The notes beneath the pieces were generated by a model, which was not told the origin of the DNA, made no database searches, and saw nothing but the letters and a program-made list of their open reading frames with translations. Below are positions 44,379 through 60,201 of a stretch of 64,000 nucleotides of DNA, piece by piece. This DNA is from Dissulfuribacter thermophilus (GTDB lineage Bacteria; Desulfobacterota; Dissulfuribacteria; Dissulfuribacterales; Dissulfuribacteraceae), in NCBI RefSeq assembly GCF_001687335.1, contig NZ_MAGO01000006.1, positions 1 through 64,000 on the forward strand, read 5' to 3'. The position numbers and the translations under genes were made by a program. Within the stretch, counting starts at the first letter, position 1. Every line of letters begins with the position of its first letter.

Positions 44379-44771
44379 ATGAAGGCTGCAGTTAGCATAA
44401 CTGATCCTGAAAAAAGTTTGGATTCTCAAATAGATCCACGTTTTGGTAGAGCAGCTAACTTCCTTTTGGTAGACCTTGAAAAGGGGGAAGCCTTAAAGGT
44501 CATATCAAATTCTCAGGCAATGAATTTGGGCCACGGGGCTGGAATACAGGCAGCAACCTTGATCGTAGAGGAAGGAGCAGATGCAGTAGTAAGCGGATAT
44601 GTTGGCCCAAAGGCATTTTCTGTTTTGAACGCCGCTGGAATCAAGGTCTATTCAGGGGCTGAAGGTACTGTCAAAGAGGTAATCAATCTTTTGAAAGAGG
44701 GGAAACTTACTCCTGGTGAAGCTCCAAGTTCAAATGGACATGGTATGGGAATGGGGAGACGTGATTTATGA
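44379..44771 (+). CDS. NifX/ORP-like protein
   Basis: A 130-residue NifX-fold protein (..DPRFGRAANFLLVDLEKGEALKVISN.., HGAGIQAATLIVEEGADAVVSGYVGPKAFSVLNAAGIKVYSG). Its motif PRFGRAANF and the Met/Gly-rich tail NGHGMGMGRRDL fit the MTH1175-like, ORP-related subgroup. The SD is TGGAGG. It overlaps the first MinD-type gene by 4 bases (ATGA), so the three genes are an operon. Confidence 0.85.
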   Translation: MKAAVSITDPEKSLDSQIDPRFGRAANFLLVDLEKGEALKVISNSQAMNLGHGAGIQAATLIVEEGADAVVSGYVGPKAFSVLNAAGIKVYSGAEGTVKEVINLLKEGKLTPGEAPSSNGHGMGMGRRDL

Positions 44772-45631
44772 GAATTGCCATAGCAAGTGGTAAGGGTGGA
44801 AGTGGTAAAACGAGTTTTTCCGTTTTACTCGCCTACTATCTTAGAAACAAACTAAAACATCCGGTAAAATATCTAGATTGTGACTGTGAAGCCCCAAATG
44901 GACACCTTTTTTTTGATGTTGACTTTAAAGGTTCAAGAAGCGTTGAGGTTGAGTGCCCAGACATAGATGAATCTCTATGTGATTACTGTGGGCTTTGCAG
45001 GGACATTTGTAAGTTCAGTGCAATCACGGTATTTGGAAAATCTATAATGACCTTCCCTGACATGTGTCATTCCTGTGGCGGATGTTTTAGGGTCTGCCCT
45101 AATGGTGCAATCAATAAACAATCAAGAATGATAGGAGAGATCAGGTGGGGAGAGAGTAGAAAAGTTGAGGGGCTTTCATTTGTGCAGGGGAGCCTCAGGA
45201 TAGGGGAGGCCATGAGTCCACCCTTAATTAAGGAGGTGTTAAACACTAGATTTTGGAATGAACCAGGTACTGTTGAAATCGTAGATTCCCCGCCTGGTAC
45301 ATCGTGTCCTGTGGTGACGAGCATAAAGGACGCCGATTACGTTATCTTGATAGGAGAGTCAACGCCCTTTGGCCTTCACGACCTTAAAATAATGGCAACA
45401 GTTGCAAGAAAAATTGGGGTTCCCTTTGGTGTAATAGCAAATAAGGCCAGGGAAAAGACAGAACTCATAGGAAACTGGTGTAGTGCAAGCGGAGTTGAAT
45501 TTCTCGGCTCACTCCCCTTTTCCATGGAATTTGCAAGAGCTTATGCAGGGGGAGGGGACATATTTGAGATCATGGAAGAAGAAAAAGATAGTCAGGAGTT
45601 GTTATGGCACGTGGCAAAAATGGTAAAGTAG
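44768..45631 (+). CDS. MinD/Mrp-type ATPase with inserted ferredoxin (first of pair)
   Basis: A 287-residue P-loop ATPase (ASGKGGSGKTSFSVLLA) carrying a two-cluster ferredoxin insertion: CDYCGLCRDICKF and CHSCGGCFRVCPN, about residues 62-110. The later VDSPPGTSCPVVTS is the switch-II type segment of the family. Pairs of such proteins (DVU2103/DVU2104-like) accompany orange protein in Desulfovibrio and act with NifX-type proteins. A role in metallocluster assembly or delivery is inferred. It overlaps the second MinD gene by 28 bases. Confidence 0.88.
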   Translation: MRIAIASGKGGSGKTSFSVLLAYYLRNKLKHPVKYLDCDCEAPNGHLFFDVDFKGSRSVEVECPDIDESLCDYCGLCRDICKFSAITVFGKSIMTFPDMCHSCGGCFRVCPNGAINKQSRMIGEIRWGESRKVEGLSFVQGSLRIGEAMSPPLIKEVLNTRFWNEPGTVEIVDSPPGTSCPVVTSIKDADYVILIGESTPFGLHDLKIMATVARKIGVPFGVIANKAREKTELIGNWCSASGVEFLGSLPFSMEFARAYAGGGDIFEIMEEEKDSQELLWHVAKMVK

Positions 45632-46491
45632 AACTCGTAATTTTAAGCGGCAAGGGCGGCACAGGAAAGACGACCTTTACTGCCTCATTGGCAGCGCTAC
45701 TTTCCGAGATCGTGATAGTGGATTGTGATGTAGATGCATCTAATTTATTCCTGTTACTAAATCCAAAAAATGTTGACGTTAATGAATTTTATAGCGGTCA
45801 GAAACCAGTAATCAATAGCGATCTCTGTAGCAAGTGTCTTACCTGTCAGGATGTATGCAATTTTGATGCAATTTATCCTGAATCAGGGAAAGTTGATGAC
45901 ATCGCATGTGAGGGCTGCGGTGTTTGCGCCTGGTTTTGCCCTGAAGGTGCCATAGATCTCAAAGAAAACCACTGTGGTAGGTGGTATGTGTCGAAAACTT
46001 CGTATGGACCAATGGTACATGCAGACCTTTTTCCAGGCGAAGAAAATTCTGGAAAGCTTGTCTATAAGATAAAGGAAACAGCCCGTGATATAGCTCAATC
46101 TGAAAATTTTGACTTGATTTTAATAGATGGTCCCCCTGGAACTGCGTGTCCTGTTATCTCAACACTGTCAGGTGCAACACACGCGGTCCTAGTGGCAGAA
46201 CCTACACTTAGTGGTTTTAGTGACATGAAGCGGACATTGGAACTATGCATGCATTTTAAGATCAAAACCTCTTGCCTCATTAATAAAGCCGATATTTCTC
46301 CACAGATTTCAGATGAAATTGAAAAGTATGCCCTGGATAACGGCATTACCTTTTTAGGGCATTTACCTTTTGAGGAAAAGGTCACACTAGCCATGGAAAA
46401 TTGTACACCATTTGTAAAAGCATTTCCAAATTCGCCCCTGTCTTTGGCAATAAAAGAAGTTGTGACGAAGATGAGGGAATGGATCACTTAA
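45604..46491 (+). CDS. MinD/Mrp-type ATPase with inserted ferredoxin (second of pair)
   Basis: A 295-residue paralogue of the preceding gene. Walker A LSGKGGTGKTTFTASLA, ferredoxin motifs CSKCLTCQDVCNF and CEGCGVCAWFCPE, and IDGPPGTACPVIS are visible. The two likely form a heterodimer and bind up to four 4Fe-4S clusters; the latter statement is inference from motif count. The gene ends 10 bases before the Pho-box-like repeats and so marks the end of the operon. Confidence 0.88.
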   Translation: MARGKNGKVELVILSGKGGTGKTTFTASLAALLSEIVIVDCDVDASNLFLLLNPKNVDVNEFYSGQKPVINSDLCSKCLTCQDVCNFDAIYPESGKVDDIACEGCGVCAWFCPEGAIDLKENHCGRWYVSKTSYGPMVHADLFPGEENSGKLVYKIKETARDIAQSENFDLILIDGPPGTACPVISTLSGATHAVLVAEPTLSGFSDMKRTLELCMHFKIKTSCLINKADISPQISDEIEKYALDNGITFLGHLPFEEKVTLAMENCTPFVKAFPNSPLSLAIKEVVTKMREWIT

Positions 46492-51907: not shown

Positions 51908-51925
51908 TTGTGCAATTTGTGCAAA
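51908..51925 (+). promoter_or_regulatory. Repeat site 1 (TTGTGCAAT-TTGTGCAAA) upstream of the Mvh/Hdr operon
   Basis: Direct repeat of TTGTGCAA at 9-bp spacing. Its core GTGCAATTTGTGCA differs by one base from the inverted copy at 52033-52048. The two copies flank the promoter-like region and are candidate regulator sites. Confidence 0.5.
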
Positions 51926-51972: not shown

Positions 51973-51999
51973 TTGACATTATCAAAAAAATAGTTTAAT
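51973..51999 (+). promoter_or_regulatory. Candidate sigma-70-type promoter of the Mvh/Hdr operon
   Basis: A perfect -35 TTGACA (51973-51978) is followed 15 bases later by TTTAAT (51994-51999) as the best -10-like sequence. The spacing is slightly short. It is between the two TTGTGC-type sites. Confidence 0.4.
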
Positions 52000-52032
52000 C
52001 ACACAAGCGTTAAAGACTTAAGTTGAAATAAA

Positions 52033-52048
52033 TGCACAAATCGCACAA
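52033..52048 (-). promoter_or_regulatory. Repeat site 2 (inverted copy) at the Mvh/Hdr operon start
   Basis: On the minus strand TTGTGCGATTTGTGCA, the inverted counterpart of 51908-51925. It ends at the putative start codon of the hydrogenase protease gene, so binding here could block transcription or initiation. Confidence 0.5.
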
Positions 52049-52569
52049 TGGTGCTTGTCTTGAAATGGTTAAATAGAGAACATAAACGTATAGCTGTTTT
52101 TGGATGTGGTAATCCCCTTTTTGGGGACGATGGCTTTGGTAGTGCAGTTATCGAAAAATTAAATCAGATCAAGAATTTGCCTCCTGATGTGGTGTTAGAG
52201 GATGTAGGGACGGGTATTCGGGAGGTCCTATTTGACTATATATTGGATCCTTCGTTGCGTCCAAGAAAGATCGTTATTGTGGACGCGGCAAGTCAGCAGG
52301 GTAGAAGGGCTGGGGAGGTCTTTCTAATTTCTCCTTCTGAGATTCCTCACGAAAAAGTACACGATTTTTCCCTTCATCAATTTCCTACCGTAAACATGCT
52401 TTCAGAGTTGGCAGAAGGTACTGGTACAGAAGTAATAATAGTGGCTGTCCAACCTGAATCCATACCAGAAAGCGTGTGTCCTGGTTTGTCCCAGTCGGTT
52501 GCCGAGGCCGTGCCCCTGGCCTGCAATATCATAAAAAAAATAATATTCGATGAATCAGAAGTGAGGTAA
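52048..52569 (+). CDS. Hydrogenase maturation protease
   Basis: A 173-residue HycI/HyaD-family endopeptidase, which cuts the C-terminal peptide from the NiFe large subunit once nickel is in place. Motif: CGNPLFGDDGFGSAVIEKL with the metal-binding acidic residues; then VDAASQQGRRAGEVF and KVHDFSLHQFPT with the conserved His. It heads the operon whose last gene is the large subunit MvhA, its expected substrate. No clear SD precedes ATG 52048; the start is uncertain. Confidence 0.88.
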   Translation: MVLVLKWLNREHKRIAVFGCGNPLFGDDGFGSAVIEKLNQIKNLPPDVVLEDVGTGIREVLFDYILDPSLRPRKIVIVDAASQQGRRAGEVFLISPSEIPHEKVHDFSLHQFPTVNMLSELAEGTGTEVIIVAVQPESIPESVCPGLSQSVAEAVPLACNIIKKIIFDESEVR

Positions 52570-52572
52570 CCA

Positions 52573-54012
52573 ATGATGTTTGAATTCAGGATAAGGGATT
52601 TGGCAGAAGAGTTTGGAGTACATCGAAATACGGTGCGAAACTGGATAAAAAATGGAGCCATAGCCGCCAAAGAGGGACCAGGTAGGCGCTATTTAATGGA
52701 ATGGAGCGATTACCTGGCTCTCTGTGAAAGGTTTGGGAAAAAGCCGCGATTTATACCAGAAATACCAGAAAAAAATGGTGCTGAGAAGGCAGATAATATT
52801 CCTGAACCTCTGGTTATTGATAAGGATAATTCCAAGACGCTATGTCCTGATCCTGCCTGGGCAGACGTCTGCCTTACCTGTGGAACATGTGCCAGTGCCT
52901 GTCCTATAGCAGGGGTCGATGGGCTAGATCCGCGAAAGATCGTACGTATGGCACTTTTTGGCCTCGAAGAAGGCCTCGTAAACAGTAACTGGGTTTGGAA
53001 GTGCACCATGTGTGCAAAATGTGAAGAAGCCTGTCCTATGAATGTCAAGATCGTCCAGCTTATAAGGAAAATCCGATCTCTCAGGCCAAGAGATCGGGTC
53101 CCTGGGCCTATACACAAAGGAGTTCAAAACTGCCTAGAGCGAGGAAACAATCTGGGGATTCCCAAAGACGACTTCTTGTTTCTCCTAGAGGATCTTGGCC
53201 AAGAGCTCTCAGAAGAGGCATGTCCTGGGTTCTCTACCCCAGTGGATGTTAGGGGAGCACGAATCCTGGTCACTGTGAATTCCAAAGAACCCTTTGCTGA
53301 GCCAGATGACATGAAATGGTGGTGGAAGATCTTTTATGCAGCCGGTGAATCCTGGACAATTTCTTCTGAGAACTGGGAAGGTGTCAACTGGGGCCTATTT
53401 TCCGGAGACGACGAGGCCATGAAGACAATCGTTAGCCGTATTGTAGACAATCTACAGAGGCTTAATTGCGAGGGGCTTCTACTACCGGAGTGAGGTCATG
53501 CATATTTTGCAACCCGGTACGGGTTGAGCAAGTGGTTTCCTGAGTTGCTCAAAAAATACAAGATTTATTCTATCTTTGATCTCTTGATGGAGTACATAAA
53601 AGAAGGGCGAATCTCCATCGACAATACTGTCCACGCCAAGCGCACGACATATCACGATCCCTGTAACTACGGCAGAAAGTCATTGAAGACCTTTGGTCAC
53701 GGTTATTTTGAGGAAGGACGTATTATTACCAGAGAATGCTGTCCTGATTTCAAAGACATGAACCCCAACCGTGAAGGTAACTATTGTTGTGGTGCAGGAG
53801 GCGGTGCCTGGGCCATGCCATTTAGCGCTGAAAGGGTCTATTACGGGCGTATAAAGGCAAGGCAAATAGAGGAGACAGGAGCTGAACTGGTCATAGCGCC
53901 CTGTCATAACTGCCGTGATCAGATCAAGAAGAGTTTAGCACACGAATACGACTTGAATATAGAGGTCAAATACCTGTGGGAGTTGGTGGCCGATTCTCTG
54001 ATTTTGCCATAA
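52573..54012 (+). CDS. HTH-HdrC-HdrB fusion with selenocysteine in the first CCG domain
   Basis: A 479-residue protein interrupted by TGA at 53491-53493 (Sec307). Residues 1-66 are a MerR/excisionase-like HTH (IRDLAEEFGVHRNTVRNWIKNG). Residues about 90-150 hold two 4Fe-4S motifs (CLTCGTCASACPI, CTMCAKCEEACPM; HdrC part). An HdrD/HdrB-like part follows, with LLLPE-U-GHAYFATRYG where ECGHAY is usual, then HDPCNYGR, NYCCGAGGGAW and APCHNC (second CCG domain). The frame continues without another stop to 54012, and the sequence after TGA matches the family. A SECIS-like hairpin follows. It would be the disulfide-reducing end of the Mvh/HdrA complex. Confidence 0.88.
53510..53526 (+). promoter_or_regulatory. 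SECIS-like hairpin of the HTH-HdrCB gene
   Basis: CAACCC-GGTAC-GGGTTG: a perfect 6-bp stem whose 5-base loop occupies bases 26-30 after the T of TGA, with GG at the start of the loop. Position and stem length are the same as in the mvhD element. Confidence 0.82.
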
Positions 54013-54127: not shown

Positions 54128-57100
54128 ATGTCAGTTAAAGATGCCATTGGTTCTGTTATGGTAATAGGAGGCGGTGTCTCAGGCATTCAAGCCGCGTTGG
54201 ACCTGGCTGATGCCGGATACTTTGTATATCTAGTAGAGAGAAGCGGTGCCATAGGAGGCGCTATGGCCCAGCTTGATAAAACCTTTCCTACCAATGACTG
54301 TGCAATGTGAATTTTGGCACCCAAGTTGGTGGAGTGCGGTCGGCACTTAAATATACAATTGATGACCTTGAGCGAGGTCATGGACATTGAGGGTGAAGAA
54401 GGAAACTTTTCAGTCAAGATCAAACAGCATCCACGTTACGTAGATGTAGACAAATGCATAGCCTGTGGAGAATGTGCTTCCAAATGTCCTAAGTCGGTGT
54501 TGGACGAATACAATGTCGGCATTTCCAAGCGTAAGGCCATTTACGTAAAGTATCCTCAAGCTGTTCCTCTGAAATATCAAATAGATCCTAAGTCCTGCAT
54601 ACGCCTAAACAAACCTGGTAAGTGTGGTTTTTGTGAGAAGGTATGCCCTGCAGGTGCCATAAAATTTGACGACACAGAAAAGGAACTCACAATACAAGTC
54701 GGTTCCATAATTATGGCCCCTGGCTTTGAGTGTTTTGATCCCAAAGAGGCAAAAGTATGGGGCTATGGACAATATCCAAATGTAATCACGTCACTTCAGT
54801 TTGAGCGCTTCCTTTCTTCCTCAGGCCCCACTGAAGGACATCTCATACGTCCCTCTGACGGAAAGTCTGTACGCAAGGTTGCTTTTTTGCAATGCGTGGG
54901 CAGCAGGGATAAGAACAGGTGTTCTAATGAATATTGCTCATCTGTGTGCTGCATGTACGCCATAAAAGAGGCTGTTATTGCCAAGGATCACGTACCTGAC
55001 CTTGTGACCTCCATATTTTTCATGGACATGCGCACCAATGGGAAAGATTTTGATCGTTACTACCAGAGGGCTAAGGATGAATCCGGAGTACGGTTTGTAA
55101 GGTGTAGGGTCCACGGAGTGGAACCCCACGGCGAAGACGGAGACCTTAGAATCCATTACATAAATGAAGAAGGTCGTCAGATCGAAGAATACTATGACCT
55201 TGTGGTCCTTTCCGTGGGTCTGGAAACACCAAAGTCAGTAATAGAGCTGGCCAATAAGGCAGGCATACAACTTACTTTAAATAATTTTGCCGCTACCTCT
55301 GCCTTTAATCCAGTTCTCACCTCTAGACCTGGAATCTTTACCTGTGGGGCCTTCGCAGGTCCGAAGGACATTCCTCAATCGGTCATGGAAGGTTCTGCAG
55401 CAGCGGCAGGAGCAGCCGAAGTATTGGCACGGGTTCGAAATTCCATGACCAGGGAGAAAGAGTTTCCCCCTGAACGAGACGTGGCCAAGGAACAACCCAG
55501 GATTGGGGTATTTGTCTGCCACTGCGGTTCAAATATCGCATCAGTAGTTGATGTGGAGTCCCTGGCTGATTATGCAGCAACCCTTCCATATGTCGAACAC
55601 GTGGAGAGGAACCTCTTTACCTGTTCCCAGGATACTCAAGAAATCATGAAGGATATCATTCAGAAAAAGGGACTAAACAGGATCGTTGTTGCTGCATGTA
55701 CACCAAGGACCCATGAATCTCTCTTCAGAGAGACGTTAAAGGCTGCAGGACTCAACGAATACCTATTCGAGATGGCAAACATAAGGAATCAAGATTCCTG
55801 GGTACACCAGAACAATCCTCAACAGGCCACCCAAAAAGCCAAGGATCTCGTTAGGATGGCTGTTTCAAAGGTGGCATTGCAGGGACCTTTGAATCAGATC
55901 AATGTGCCTATAACCCAAAGGGGTCTCGTAATTGGTGGGGGCGTTGCCGGAATGGAAAGTGCCCTTAGTTTGGCAGAACAGGGATTTGATGTAGACCTTG
56001 TAGAAAAGGGTAGAGAATTAGGAGGAAATGCCAGGTTTCTGCACCAAACATGGACAAATGAGGATATTCAAGGATACCTTCAGAAATTAATCCAGAAGGT
56101 ATTTGACCATCCAAAGATCAATGTCCACTTGGAATCTAAAGTAATAGATGTCGATGGATATGTTGGCAATTACTCCACTACAATATACAGCAGAGGAAAG
56201 AAGAAGACCATCGAACACGGTATTGGGATAATCGCCATCGGTGGCCAACGTTTTAGGCCCAATGAATACGGATACGGAAAGCTGGATGGCGTCTTCACTT
56301 CCATAGAATTCGATGCCATAAAAAGGGCAGGGGATTATCGCATAAGACGGGCCAAATCTTTCGTGTTCATACAGTGTGTTGGCTCACGAGAGGACGATAG
56401 AAATTACTGTTCACGCGTGTGTTGTACTCATTCTGTTCAGGCAGCAATTGATCTCAAAAAGGAAGATCCATCTCGGTCAGTATACATCCTTTACAGAGAC
56501 ATGCGTACTTATGGAGAACGTGAGGCCTTGTACAGGCAGGCCAGGGAGATGGGTATCATCTTCATCAATTACGAACTCCATGGAAAACCGCGAGTTAGTC
56601 CTATCGAGGACTCTCATCAAATGAAAGTCGAGGTTTGGGACCACGTGCTTCACCGTCCACTGGAGATTGTGACTGATCTAGTGGTACTTGCATCGGCTAT
56701 TGTCCCAAATCCAGATGCCAAGAACCTAGCAAAGCTTTTCAAGGTGCCAGTGGATTCCGATGGCTTCTTCCAAGAGGCCCATGCCAAACTGAGACCAGTG
56801 GATTTTGCTACAGATGGTCTCTTTATGGCTGGATTGACCCATTATCCAAAACCCATAGAAGAATCTATTGCCCAGGCAAAGGCAGCAGCAGCAAAGGCAG
56901 CGGCCCTTCTGGCCAGGGAATCCATAGCTCTTGAAGCCATAAAGGCAAACGTCAACCCTCAAAAATGTGACGGCTGTGCTCTTTGTATAGATGTTTGCCC
57001 CTTCAATGCCATAAGCCTTGTGGAAACCAGAGACGAAAATGGCGACATTCACAAATCCATAAATATTAACAAGGCTCAATGCAAAGGTTGCGGTCTTTGC

Positions 57101-57190
57101 CAGGGGACATGTCCGAAAGAGGGGGTCAATGTTGCCGGCTTTTCAATGGAACAACTCAGGGCACAGATCAAAGCGGCTCTGGCTGCTTGA
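54128..57190 (+). CDS. hdrA: Double HdrA flavoprotein with selenocysteine
   Basis: A 1020-residue fusion of two HdrA units. Unit 1 (1 to about 400) has FAD motif [19 protein letters not shown], then [17 protein letters not shown] with TGA at 54308-54310 (Sec61), a ferredoxin insertion ([24 protein letters not shown]) and [14 protein letters not shown]. Unit 2 starts [15 protein letters not shown], repeats the FAD motif [29 protein letters not shown], and ends in two 4Fe-4S motifs ([26 protein letters not shown]). HdrA carries out flavin-based electron bifurcation in methanogens, and Sec at this position is known in Methanococci. AAGGAGG is 6 bases before ATG 54128. Confidence 0.93.
54333..54347 (+). 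promoter_or_regulatory. SECIS-like hairpin of hdrA
   Basis: AGTGC-GGTCG-GCACT: a 5-bp stem with a loop beginning GGTC, as in E. coli fdhF. The loop is at bases 31-35 after the T of TGA, about 5 bases farther than in the neighbouring genes. Confidence 0.68.
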
Positions 57191-57221: not shown

Positions 57222-57674
57222 ATGAGCTACGAACCCAAGATAACCGCCTTTTGTTGTAACTGGTGCTCCTATGCAGCAGCAGATCTTGCTGGGATTTCCA
57301 GAATGGAATATCCCCCAAATGTAAGAATAATCAGGGTCATGTGTTCAGGTATGGTGCATCCAGACCTTGTCCTGGAAGCCCTGAATTTTGGCGCAGACGG
57401 CGTAATGGTCCTCGGGTGACACCTTGGAGAGTGTCATTACCAGGATGGTAATTACGTAGCCTATGAAAGAGCAAAAATGATAAAGGACGTATTAAAAGAA
57501 TTTGGTTATGATCCTGAACGGTTCCATATTGCCTGGTGCTCATCCTCTGAACCTGACAAATTTGTACAGGAAGTTACAGAGATGACCAACAGGATCAAGG
57601 CGCTGGGACCACATGCCAATAGCCTGTTTTACAGGGAAGCACAAAAGGCAAAGGAGTGTCAAAATGGGAGTTAA
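57222..57674 (+). CDS. mvhD: MvhD, hydrogenase/Hdr linker subunit, with selenocysteine
   Basis: A 150-residue iron-sulfur protein that bridges the MvhAG hydrogenase and HdrA with a 2Fe-2S cluster. It starts [21 protein letters not shown] and [19 protein letters not shown]; then [15 protein letters not shown] with TGA at 57417-57419 (Sec66) where other MvhD proteins have Cys; and ends [11 protein letters not shown].. with helical tail. Frame and spacing show that TGA is read through. The methanococcal VhuD is also a selenoprotein. AGGAGG precedes the start. It overlaps mvhG by 11 bases. Confidence 0.92.
57436..57452 (+). promoter_or_regulatory. SECIS-like hairpin of mvhD
   Basis: ATTACC-AGGAT-GGTAAT: a perfect 6-bp stem and 5-base loop at bases 26-30 after the T of TGA, with GG in the loop. 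Confidence 0.82.
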
Positions 57675-58587
57675 GGTAGTTAGCGAATGGCTCCATTCAT
57701 GTTCAGGATGTGAAATCGCCATATTAAATATTGGCGAGGAGCTACTGGACCTGTTGGAACGGGTGGAGCTAGTGCACATACCAGTTTTAATGGACAAGAA
57801 ATACTTTGGACAGACAGGCCAGGAGAATGATTTGGACATCCCTGAGGCAGATGTTGCCCTGGTCTCTGGTGGAGTAGCCAATGACGAGCACTTGGAGGTA
57901 CTGGAAAAGGTAAGATCCCGCTGTAACTTCCTAATAGCCCTTGGGACTTGCGCTACACACGGAGGAATTCCGTCCCTTTTGAATCAGTGGACTAAGAAGG
58001 AGGCCATGGAGACCATTTATTCCACTTCAACTACTGATGATTGCGAGATCCCCTCTGAAGGGATTCCAAAGATGCTGGACAGGGTCTATGCGCTGGACGA
58101 ACAAGTTAAGGTGGATTTGATGGTGCCAGGGTGTCCTCCTAATTCGGAACATATTGCAAGTGTCTTGAAGGCCCTCATTTCAGGGAAAAGTCCTACGCTT
58201 CCAGACAAAAGCGTGTGTAGCACATGTCCGACCCTAAGAAAGGGTAAGGGAGACGTAAAGGGAGTGAAGAGGTTTTTAGAGAATGCCAACTTCACCCCTG
58301 GCGAACCTTTGGAACGCATGAGGTGTCTGCTGGAACAAGGATATATGTGCATGGGGCCTGTGACTGCAGCGGGCTGCGCTGTTTCTGGGGCACCCAAATG
58401 TATATCTGCAAGGGTGCCGTGCCGCGGTTGCTATGGACCAGTACGGTTCAATGGTAATCAGTTGCTCGACATGATGAATGCCCTTGCAAGTAATGGAATA
58501 GACTGGAGATCAATTGAGGATAAACGTTCGCTTTTGCGATTTTCAGGGGCACACGGTTTTTTAAGACCGTTAAAACATGAGAAATGA
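57664..58587 (+). CDS. mvhG: MvhG, NiFe hydrogenase small subunit
   Basis: A 307-residue small subunit that carries iron-sulfur clusters from the NiFe centre to MvhD. Proximal-cluster motifs: WLHSCSGCEIAILN near the N-terminus, ALGTCATHGGIPS, and VPGCPPNSEHI; CPTLRKG, CMGPVTAAGCAVSG and PCRGCYGPV supply further Cys residues. There is no Tat signal, so the enzyme is cytoplasmic, as expected for group 3 hydrogenases. I use ATG 57664 (AAGGAGT 6 bases upstream). It overlaps mvhA's first possible start by 4 bases. Confidence 0.93.
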   Translation: MGVKVVSEWLHSCSGCEIAILNIGEELLDLLERVELVHIPVLMDKKYFGQTGQENDLDIPEADVALVSGGVANDEHLEVLEKVRSRCNFLIALGTCATHGGIPSLLNQWTKKEAMETIYSTSTTDDCEIPSEGIPKMLDRVYALDEQVKVDLMVPGCPPNSEHIASVLKALISGKSPTLPDKSVCSTCPTLRKGKGDVKGVKRFLENANFTPGEPLERMRCLLEQGYMCMGPVTAAGCAVSGAPKCISARVPCRGCYGPVRFNGNQLLDMMNALASNGIDWRSIEDKRSLLRFSGAHGFLRPLKHEK

Positions 58588-58601
58588 TGGAGAATATCGT
58601 T

Positions 58602-60047
58602 ATGGGTAAGACCTTAAACATACAACCTATTACCAGAATAGAAGGACATGCCAAGATCTCTATCCATCTCGATGACGATGGCAACGTCCAGGATACCCGG
58701 CTTTATATAATGTCTCTACGCGGATTTGAGAAATTCATAGAAGGGCGTCCTGCAGAAGAGGTGCCTAGGATAGTAAACCGTATTTGCGGAATCTGTCCAT
58801 GGATGCATCATACTGCATCTGTAAAGGCAGTTGACGGCTGTTTTGGAGTGACTCCAACCCCTGCAGGAAATAAGTTGAGGGAGTTACTCCAGGTCATGGC
58901 GCACATAAATGATAAGATCCTCCACTTTTTCTTCCTGGCAGCCCCGGACTTTGTCATTGGGCCTGATAGTGACTATAGGGTGAGAAATGTACTTGGAATA
59001 GCCCAAAAGGCACCGGATTTGGCCAGAGAGGTGGTGAAGATGCGCCAGATGGGCCAGATGATGATAGAAGGATTTGCAGGAAAGGCCATACATCCTGTAG
59101 CTGCTGTGCCTGGTGGTTTTTCTAAGCCTATGACAGAAGAAGAAAGGCAGGATCTATTAGAAAAGTCCAGACAGCTTCTAGACTTCTCTCTTTTCGCCTT
59201 GAAATTTGCAAAGGAAAAGGTGTTTTCCAAGTATGAAGACGAAATTGCAACACTGGGGGCCATAACAACAGGATTTCTGGGTACAGTAGATGAAAATGGT
59301 GCTTTGAGGCTCTTTAACGGAAAACTCCGTCTCATGAAACCCGACGGATCATATGTAGATTTTTCATATGAGGAATATCGGGACTATATAGCAGAGCACG
59401 TTGAGCCATGGTCCTATGGTAAGATGCCCTATGCAAAGGTATGGGATGAAGGTTTTTCCATGGACCTAGATTCTCCCAAGGGGATCTATCGTTCAAATGC
59501 TCTGGCCAGAATCAATGTCTGTGATCATATTTCTACTCCCAGGGCACAAGAGGCCCTTGAAGAGTTCAGAGAAAGGTTTGGAAGACCGGCTCAGAGCACA
59601 CTTCTCTACCACTGGGCACGACTAATAGAACTTGTGTATGCCTGTGAGAGGACTGTGGAGTTGCTTGAGGACGAACAGTTGACTGACCCCAATGTCCGTT
59701 CAAAGTGCGAACCAGGAGCGGGTCGCGGCGTCGGTTGTGTAGAAGCCCCAAGGGGAACGCTGATCCATGACTATGAAACCGATGAAAAGGGCTGCATAGT
59801 CAGAGCCAATATGATAGTTGGTACCACTCACAACATAGCCCCAATGAACATGAGTGTAGCACAGGCCGCTAAATCTCTAATCAAAAATGGATCATACGAC
59901 GAGGGGCTCTTGAATAGAGTTGAAATGGCGGTGCGAGCGTACGATCCGTGAATTTCCTGTGCCACACACCGCCTGGATGGCGGAATTCCCTTGTCAGTAA
60001 CAATTGTTGATTCAAAGGGAAATATTGTCAGGAATTTAAGGGCATAA
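58602..60047 (+). CDS. mvhA: MvhA, NiFe hydrogenase large subunit, with selenocysteine
   Basis: A 481-residue catalytic subunit. The N-terminal nickel motif RICGICPWMHH is intact. The C-terminal motif DPCxxCxxH reads DP-U-ISCATH, with TGA at 59949-59951 (Sec450); then RLDGGIPLSVTIVDSKGN.. to TAA 60045-60047. Reading TGA as a stop would remove two nickel ligands and the cleavage site. The 25 residues after His would be removed by the protease encoded at 52048. ATG 58602 has GGAG 9 bases upstream; 58584 is an alternative start overlapping mvhG. It is the [NiFeSe] counterpart of Mvh (group 3). Confidence 0.94.
59969..59983 (+). promoter_or_regulatory. SECIS-like hairpin of mvhA
   Basis: CCGCC-TGGAT-GGCGG: a 5-bp GC stem with a 5-base loop at bases 26-30 after the T of TGA, containing GG. 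Same register as in mvhD and HTH-hdrCB. Confidence 0.82.
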
Positions 60048-60055
60048 GGTTTTAT

Positions 60056-60138
60056 GGTAAGCGCTCACAGGATAAACTATAAAGTCGCTCATCAATCTCC
60101 CCTCCTCCTCCTCATAGGGCCCCCTGCGAGCGCTTACC
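60056..60138. repeat. Long imperfect inverted repeat after mvhA
   Basis: GGTAAGCGCTCACAGG (60056-60071) pairs with CCTGCGAGCGCTTACC (60123-60138) over 16 positions with one mismatch. The 51-base interior is pyrimidine-rich (CCTCCTCCTCCTC). It starts 8 bases after the mvhA stop. No T-run follows directly, so it is not a simple terminator. It may protect the 3' end of the operon RNA or be a small RNA or mobile-element remnant. Confidence 0.75.
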
Positions 60139-60201
60139 CATTTCCTTTGGGCATTGGCCTTTTTTTATCCCCTTTTAAACCCGATTCCAAGGAGAGGAAA
60201 A

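Follow-up and report, generated by a model that had tools for sequence, protein, structure and literature searches.

A heterodisulfide reductase selenoprotein with a fused BldC-like DNA-binding domain as a predicted regulator of its own operon in the Desulfobacterota

Can a subunit of a hydrogenase/heterodisulfide reductase (Hdr) complex also serve as the transcription factor for the operon that encodes it? The question is raised by a gene of Dissulfuribacter thermophilus (assembly GCF_001687335.1), which lies in a window of 64,000 nucleotides (contig NZ_MAGO01000006.1, positions 1 to 64,000, to which all coordinates below refer). A preliminary description, made from the sequence of this window, had proposed that a helix-turn-helix (HTH) domain is joined there to HdrC and HdrB parts in one selenoprotein chain, and that two TTGTGC-type sites flank the promoter of the same operon. 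It read the protein either as a redox enzyme acting as its own regulator or as an HTH fold reused as a protein-binding adaptor.

The fusion protein and its operon

The proposed coordinates, reading frame and chain length were right. Positions 52573-54012 of the forward strand form a single open reading frame of 479 residues, with one in-frame TGA at codon 307 (53491-53493). Residues 1-58 (52573-52746, forward strand) constitute a predicted MerR/BldC-type winged HTH. The isolated N-terminus matches Pfam HTH_17 with E = 2.7e-8 and 34.4 bits, above the gathering cut-off of 27, which places it in the MerR/excisionase superfamily as had been suggested, and an AlphaFold2 model of the domain has a pLDDT of 86. 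In the AlphaFold model of the full chain, the winged HTH is predicted with a pLDDT of about 90, the linker at residues 62-76 falls below 50 and is disordered, and the redox body is modeled confidently. The predicted recognition helix is VHRNTVRNWIKNG (residues 16-28) and the wing is KEGPGRRY (residues 33-40). Both are basic and near-invariant among relatives, with residues of the DNA-contact type being the most conserved; an acidic helix would have spoken against the preliminary reading. This HTH domain is single-copy in the D. thermophilus genome.

The remainder of the chain bears out the proposed HdrC and HdrB parts. Pfam Fer4_8 covers residues 97-158, a two-cluster ferredoxin module like that of HdrC, and Pfam CCG covers residues 359-452, a Cys-rich HdrB-type sequence in the C-terminal half. 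The nearest NCBIfam models are HmcF (199 bits against an equivalog cut-off of 750), TmcB (179 against 735) and DsrK (150 against 400). As each score lies under its cut-off, we rejected all three identities and regard the body as an HdrD-type fusion of HdrC and HdrB; the whole protein is referred to here as HTH-HdrCB. Codon 307 lies within a conserved ECGHA motif; 70 loci have TGA at this codon and 7 have TGC, and the D. thermophilus genome encodes a SelB that scores above its cut-off; the TGA is thus convincingly predicted to be read as selenocysteine (Sec). The order abounds in HdrCB-like homologs that are 35-39% identical, contain one in-frame TGA and have no HTH in the match (genomes G034, G024, G006, G009 and others), which indicates that Sec is widely distributed in the HdrD-type fold outside this operon too.

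HTH-HdrCB is the second of six genes on one strand. The first encodes a HycI/FrhD-type hydrogenase maturation protease (52048-52569; Pfam HycI 1.1e-18, NCBIfam hydrog_prot 2e-34), and the fusion gene is followed by HdrA (54128-57190; NCBIfam HdrA2 3e-299), with a Sec codon TGA at 54308-54310, and by an MvhD-like subunit (57222-57674), named from its sequence by eye without a family search, with an in-frame TGA at 57417-57419 that is probably also Sec. An MvhG/VhuG-like hydrogenase small subunit (57664-58587; NCBIfam VhuG 2.5e-65) and an MvhA/VhuA-type [NiFeSe] hydrogenase large subunit (58584-60047; NCBIfam VhuA 3e-144, with a VhuU match over the C-terminus and a Sec TGA at 59949-59951) complete the order. 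The components of an MvhADG-HdrABC complex, namely MvhA, MvhG, MvhD (by eye) and HdrA, are therefore found together, with HdrB and HdrC merged in one chain. Just 3' of the large-subunit gene, positions 60058-60142 hold a long inverted repeat, GGTAAGCGCTCAC ... GCGAGCGCTTACC, ahead of a T-rich stretch, possibly the operon terminator. Elsewhere in the window (44379-46491) we noted, by eye, two adjoining MinD/Mrp-type ATPases with ferredoxin-like Cys motifs; beside them are a NifX/NafY-like protein and, on the opposite strand, a gene with an ArsR-type HTH.

Predicted operators and the presence of the HTH domain

A predicted sigma70-type promoter (51973-52003, forward strand), with TTGACA at 51973-51978 and a weak -10 element around 51994-52001, precedes the operon and is flanked by two mutually inverted 16-mers. 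The upstream predicted operator, TTGTGCAATTTGTGCA (51908-51923, forward strand), is an exact 16-mer containing two TTGTGC half-sites 9 bp apart; the downstream one, TTGTGCGATTTGTGCA (52033-52048, reverse strand), is inverted relative to the first, spans approximately +27 to +41 and reaches the hycI start codon. The 16-mer direct repeat TTGTGCRATTTGTGCA (searched as TTGTGCNATTTGTGCA) has exactly two matches in the whole 2.52 Mb genome, and both are these. The existence of the two promoter-flanking sites thus held up, far above chance; what changed is their structure, since the boxes are tandem 9-bp direct repeats and each site hence comprises two half-sites.

Both the fusion and the sites recur in relatives, as the preliminary description had suggested checking. 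The full 1-479 architecture was found in dozens of genomes labeled Desulfobulbaceae, Syntrophobacteraceae, Desulfarculaceae and others, and the fusion is widespread across the Desulfobacterota. In the alignment the linker is variable and the recognition helix is near-invariant (VHRNT[IV]RNW): VHRNTIRNWI occurs in 71 of 89 loci, and nearly all the rest are conservative variants. Among 69 de-duplicated promoter regions of HTH-bearing operons, with expectations drawn from order-1 Markov shuffles, no 6-mer is more strongly enriched than GCACAA/TTGTGC (63 observed against 12.7 expected, z = 15.6); TTGACA is likewise enriched. Spacings between half-sites on the same strand peak sharply at 9 bp (91), the next value being 18 bp (20), and when 163 half-sites are aligned on GCACAA a second GCAC(A) appears at exactly -9 and +9 on the same strand. 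The predicted operator is a head-to-tail array, not a palindrome, and it is conserved across classes with its 9-bp period.

Direct repeats of 9 bp occur in 45/85 upstream regions of HTH-bearing operons and in 0/9 HTH-less HdrCB operons (Fisher 0.003, a value inflated by shared ancestry; the HTH-less controls are few and phylogenetically clustered), and in a single one of 948 background windows taken from these loci. An exact or one-base-short repeat is absent from the other 40 of the 85 regions, most of which retain at least one half-site; the HTH is present without a clear array at locus L109 and in the second copies L077, L078 and L085. Used as a genome-wide marker, the exact 9-bp repeat separates genomes only weakly, and we did not retain it as such. 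Measured from predicted starts that depend on weakly predicted -10 elements, half-sites in relatives are most frequent between +0 and +60 and form a second cluster between -60 and -120.

Several loci amount to natural experiments. The sole locus with a rewritten recognition helix, L086 (VTQTVIKNWI), has no box in its promoter, and its genome (G108) has no exact repeat. Several other lineages carry the HTH on HdrA instead of HdrCB, as an N-terminal fusion, in a gene that is either first or right after hycI, and GCACAA boxes are again found at the operon promoter; loci of the HdrCB type have one HTH per operon. In L094 and L104, which lack hycI before HTH-HdrCB, the boxes stand directly in front of HTH-HdrCB. 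The operator thus follows the domain, whatever the subunit that carries it and whatever the gene order. The idea that HTH-less operons might hide the domain on a neighboring gene was ruled out, there being no such HTH in the fetched flanks, and no conserved regulator gene was found upstream, where the conserved genes of Desulfobulbaceae resemble galE and ligA. In one 1.7 Mb genome (L149 in G309, the same match as G417) the HTH has the best profile score and a GCACAA box lies at -516, yet the HdrCB part that follows seems to have been deleted or frameshifted; either operator and HTH persist there without the enzyme, or the assembly is faulty.

Arrays also stand before the small subunit of a Tat-exported periplasmic [NiFe] hydrogenase (for example in L119, L123 and L135), in 6/11 genomes with the HTH and 0/19 without it, all within one order (Fisher 7.8e-4, likewise inflated by shared ancestry). 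The HTH protein would probably also control the periplasmic [NiFe] hydrogenase in several genomes. Arrays near two genes for formate-tetrahydrofolate ligase (fhs; L139 and L146) did not generalize (1/16 genomes with the HTH and 0/23 without), so fhs was rejected as a regulon member, and most other stray exact repeats fall inside unrelated coding regions and were set aside as background. An exact array before a second hdrA-type gene (L138, G083:C22, about 6280) suggests a wider Hdr regulon in some Desulfobulbaceae. In G066 (L120, L122) a hypF-like sequence lies divergently oriented to hycI across the operator, so that one array could serve a maturation gene as well as the operon; the second hycI-like copy of this genome, L122, has an array of its own.

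Mode of action and competing explanations

The closest solved structures to the HTH model are BldC-DNA complexes (6AMK and 6AMA; Foldseek ranks 1-3, E about 0.04; Z 6.1 and 5.9), scores at which the match is a resemblance of fold only. BldC has a MerR-like winged HTH and binds head-to-tail, with one protomer per 9-bp direct repeat, whereas classical MerR regulators bind a palindromic operator within the 19-20 bp spacer between -35 and -10 (PMC5859096). The predicted operators match the former, both in the count of 91 at 9 bp and in the +9/-9 profile, and depart from the latter, being direct repeats that lie mostly downstream of the predicted start. BldC is a stand-alone winged HTH without an effector domain, unlike the HTH described here, which is fused to HdrCB or HdrA. 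Site period and fold are two independent lines that converge on a BldC mode, each fold score being modest, and together they are the strongest mechanistic hint.

We consider it highly likely that the HTH domain recognizes the GCACAA/TTGTGC boxes. With a DNA-binding domain in the chain and conserved sites where its own operon begins, the enzyme very probably governs how much of it is made, and the comparative evidence lends strong support to the earlier reading of a predicted redox enzyme acting as its own regulator. No outcome named in the preliminary description as refuting came about, since an HTH is predicted, its helix is basic and the sites are conserved. Our main proposal is that HTH-HdrCB is a PutA-like autoregulatory, or trigger, enzyme, probably a repressor, with a BldC-like mode of DNA binding, to which we give a probability of roughly 0.75; repression coupled to a metabolic switch is held with less confidence than recognition of the boxes. 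HTH-HdrCB would be a catalytic subunit of an MvhADG-HdrABC-type hydrogenase/heterodisulfide reductase complex, and its HTH would bind tandem 9-bp TTGTGC half-sites head-to-tail. At its own promoter it would occupy an array just past the start of transcription and, often, another some 100 bp upstream. Repression would set in when HTH-HdrCB exceeds what the complex uses, or when its Fe-S/Sec centers are in one redox state, and would be released by incorporation into a working complex or by a redox change. Excess free subunit, complex assembly and Fe-S/Sec redox state are all compatible as candidate signals. In position, half-sites at +0 to +60 and -60 to -120 fit repression, possibly with looping.

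The sign of the regulation is where a different outcome has the most room, and we still regard it as unlikely that HTH-HdrCB binds the boxes as an activator or as a nucleoid-type architectural factor. BldC distorts DNA and can have varied effects (PMC5859096), Xis-like proteins do likewise, and an upstream array sits at about -90 here and in some relatives; against this, sites lie most often at +0 to +60, where they overlap the start of transcription or translation, and several loci have no other site. Slightly less probable again is that an unlinked regulator, such as Rex, HcpR/CRP-FNR or another protein, binds the boxes, the fused HTH being incidental or binding other DNA. TTGTG-CACAA half-sites do resemble Rex/HcpR-type motifs, yet dimeric regulators of this kind bind inverted repeats at a fixed spacing, and in the aligned sites the partners lie on the same strand at 9 bp, with no fixed inverted partner. 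Some Syntrophobacteraceae have a palindromic TTGTGCACAA, and many loci have half-sites alone and no full array, as an unlinked regulator would allow. It would not account as readily for arrays that are absent where the HTH is absent or its helix rewritten and present where the HTH sits on HdrA, for boxes before the periplasmic hydrogenase in HTH-bearing genomes only, or for sites confined to a single operon in the D. thermophilus genome.

The adaptor reading of the preliminary description, in which the HTH fold docks HdrCB to a partner protein and the boxes are a separate matter, fares worst, and we think it very improbable. Protein binding by a MerR-like fold has a precedent in CbpM (3UCS, which is among the structural matches), and the linker is long and disordered. 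Conservation is highest, however, at helix and wing residues of the kind that contact DNA, an adaptor does not predict matching 9-bp operators, and attachment to either HdrCB or HdrA would be odd for a specific docking site.

We see about an even chance of a wider role in H2/heterodisulfide electron bifurcation, in which the Hdr complex itself is a trigger enzyme that senses redox state or assembly. By way of a BldC-like domain placed in evolution on HdrCB or on HdrA, it would monitor H2 metabolism and exert direct control over both its own operon and a periplasmic hydrogenase across the Desulfobacterota.

Comparison with known systems

The enzymatic side of this operon has precedents. A four-selenoprotein operon, frhA-frhD-hdrA-glpC, has already been described in Deltaproteobacteria, and its selenoproteins are the same four in kind as those found here (MvhA, MvhD, HdrA and HdrD/GlpC-like); the parts of that description available to us mention no HTH domain or operator (PMC13188914). 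Desulfobacterium autotrophicum HdrD1-HdrD5 and HdrA1 likewise include Sec-containing HdrCB fusions and HdrA-mvhD-mvhG-mvhA clusters, and in the accessible portion of that report the HdrD proteins are presented as having HdrC and HdrB domains, an N-terminal HTH not being described (PMC2702500). HdrR of Methanosarcina barkeri regulates an hdr operon (PMC11218639). It is a separate archaeal regulator, unlike HTH-HdrCB, in which the DNA-binding domain is fused to the enzyme. Our literature search, which covered mainly papers outside subscription journals and is weak evidence on this point, found no published Hdr-HTH fusion or operator for one. No electron-bifurcating or hydrogenase complex is known to us to contain a transcription factor of its own.

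If the proposal is correct, sulfate reducers and syntrophs would have a core H2 enzyme whose redox or assembly state feeds directly into gene expression, energy metabolism would be tied directly to gene control in sulfur- and sulfate-metabolizing bacteria, and a ready operator motif would be at hand for predicting H2 regulons in uncultured Desulfobacterota. The shift of the HTH between HdrCB and HdrA, with the operator kept, would be a natural experiment in how enzymes become regulators, and the short list of fused trigger enzymes would acquire a second, unrelated example.

BldC of Streptomyces shares with HTH-HdrCB the MerR-like winged HTH and the 9-bp repeat period, and differs in being a free developmental regulator of 68 residues, with a sequence identity of about 22%. 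In PutA, a DNA-binding domain is fused N-terminally to an enzyme. PutA (proline utilization A) is the model trigger enzyme and represses its own operon (PMC6978683). As in PutA, a DNA-binding domain and an enzyme share one chain here, an arrangement conserved across lineages, with operators, as predicted sites, in the operon's own promoter. PutA would thus be the nearest functional analog, its DNA-binding domain being unrelated: PutA is a flavoenzyme with a ribbon-helix-helix, whereas HTH-HdrCB is an Fe-S/Sec Hdr subunit with a winged HTH, belongs to a predicted multi-subunit hydrogenase complex and, unlike PutA, is part of a system in which the domain may sit on either of two subunits.
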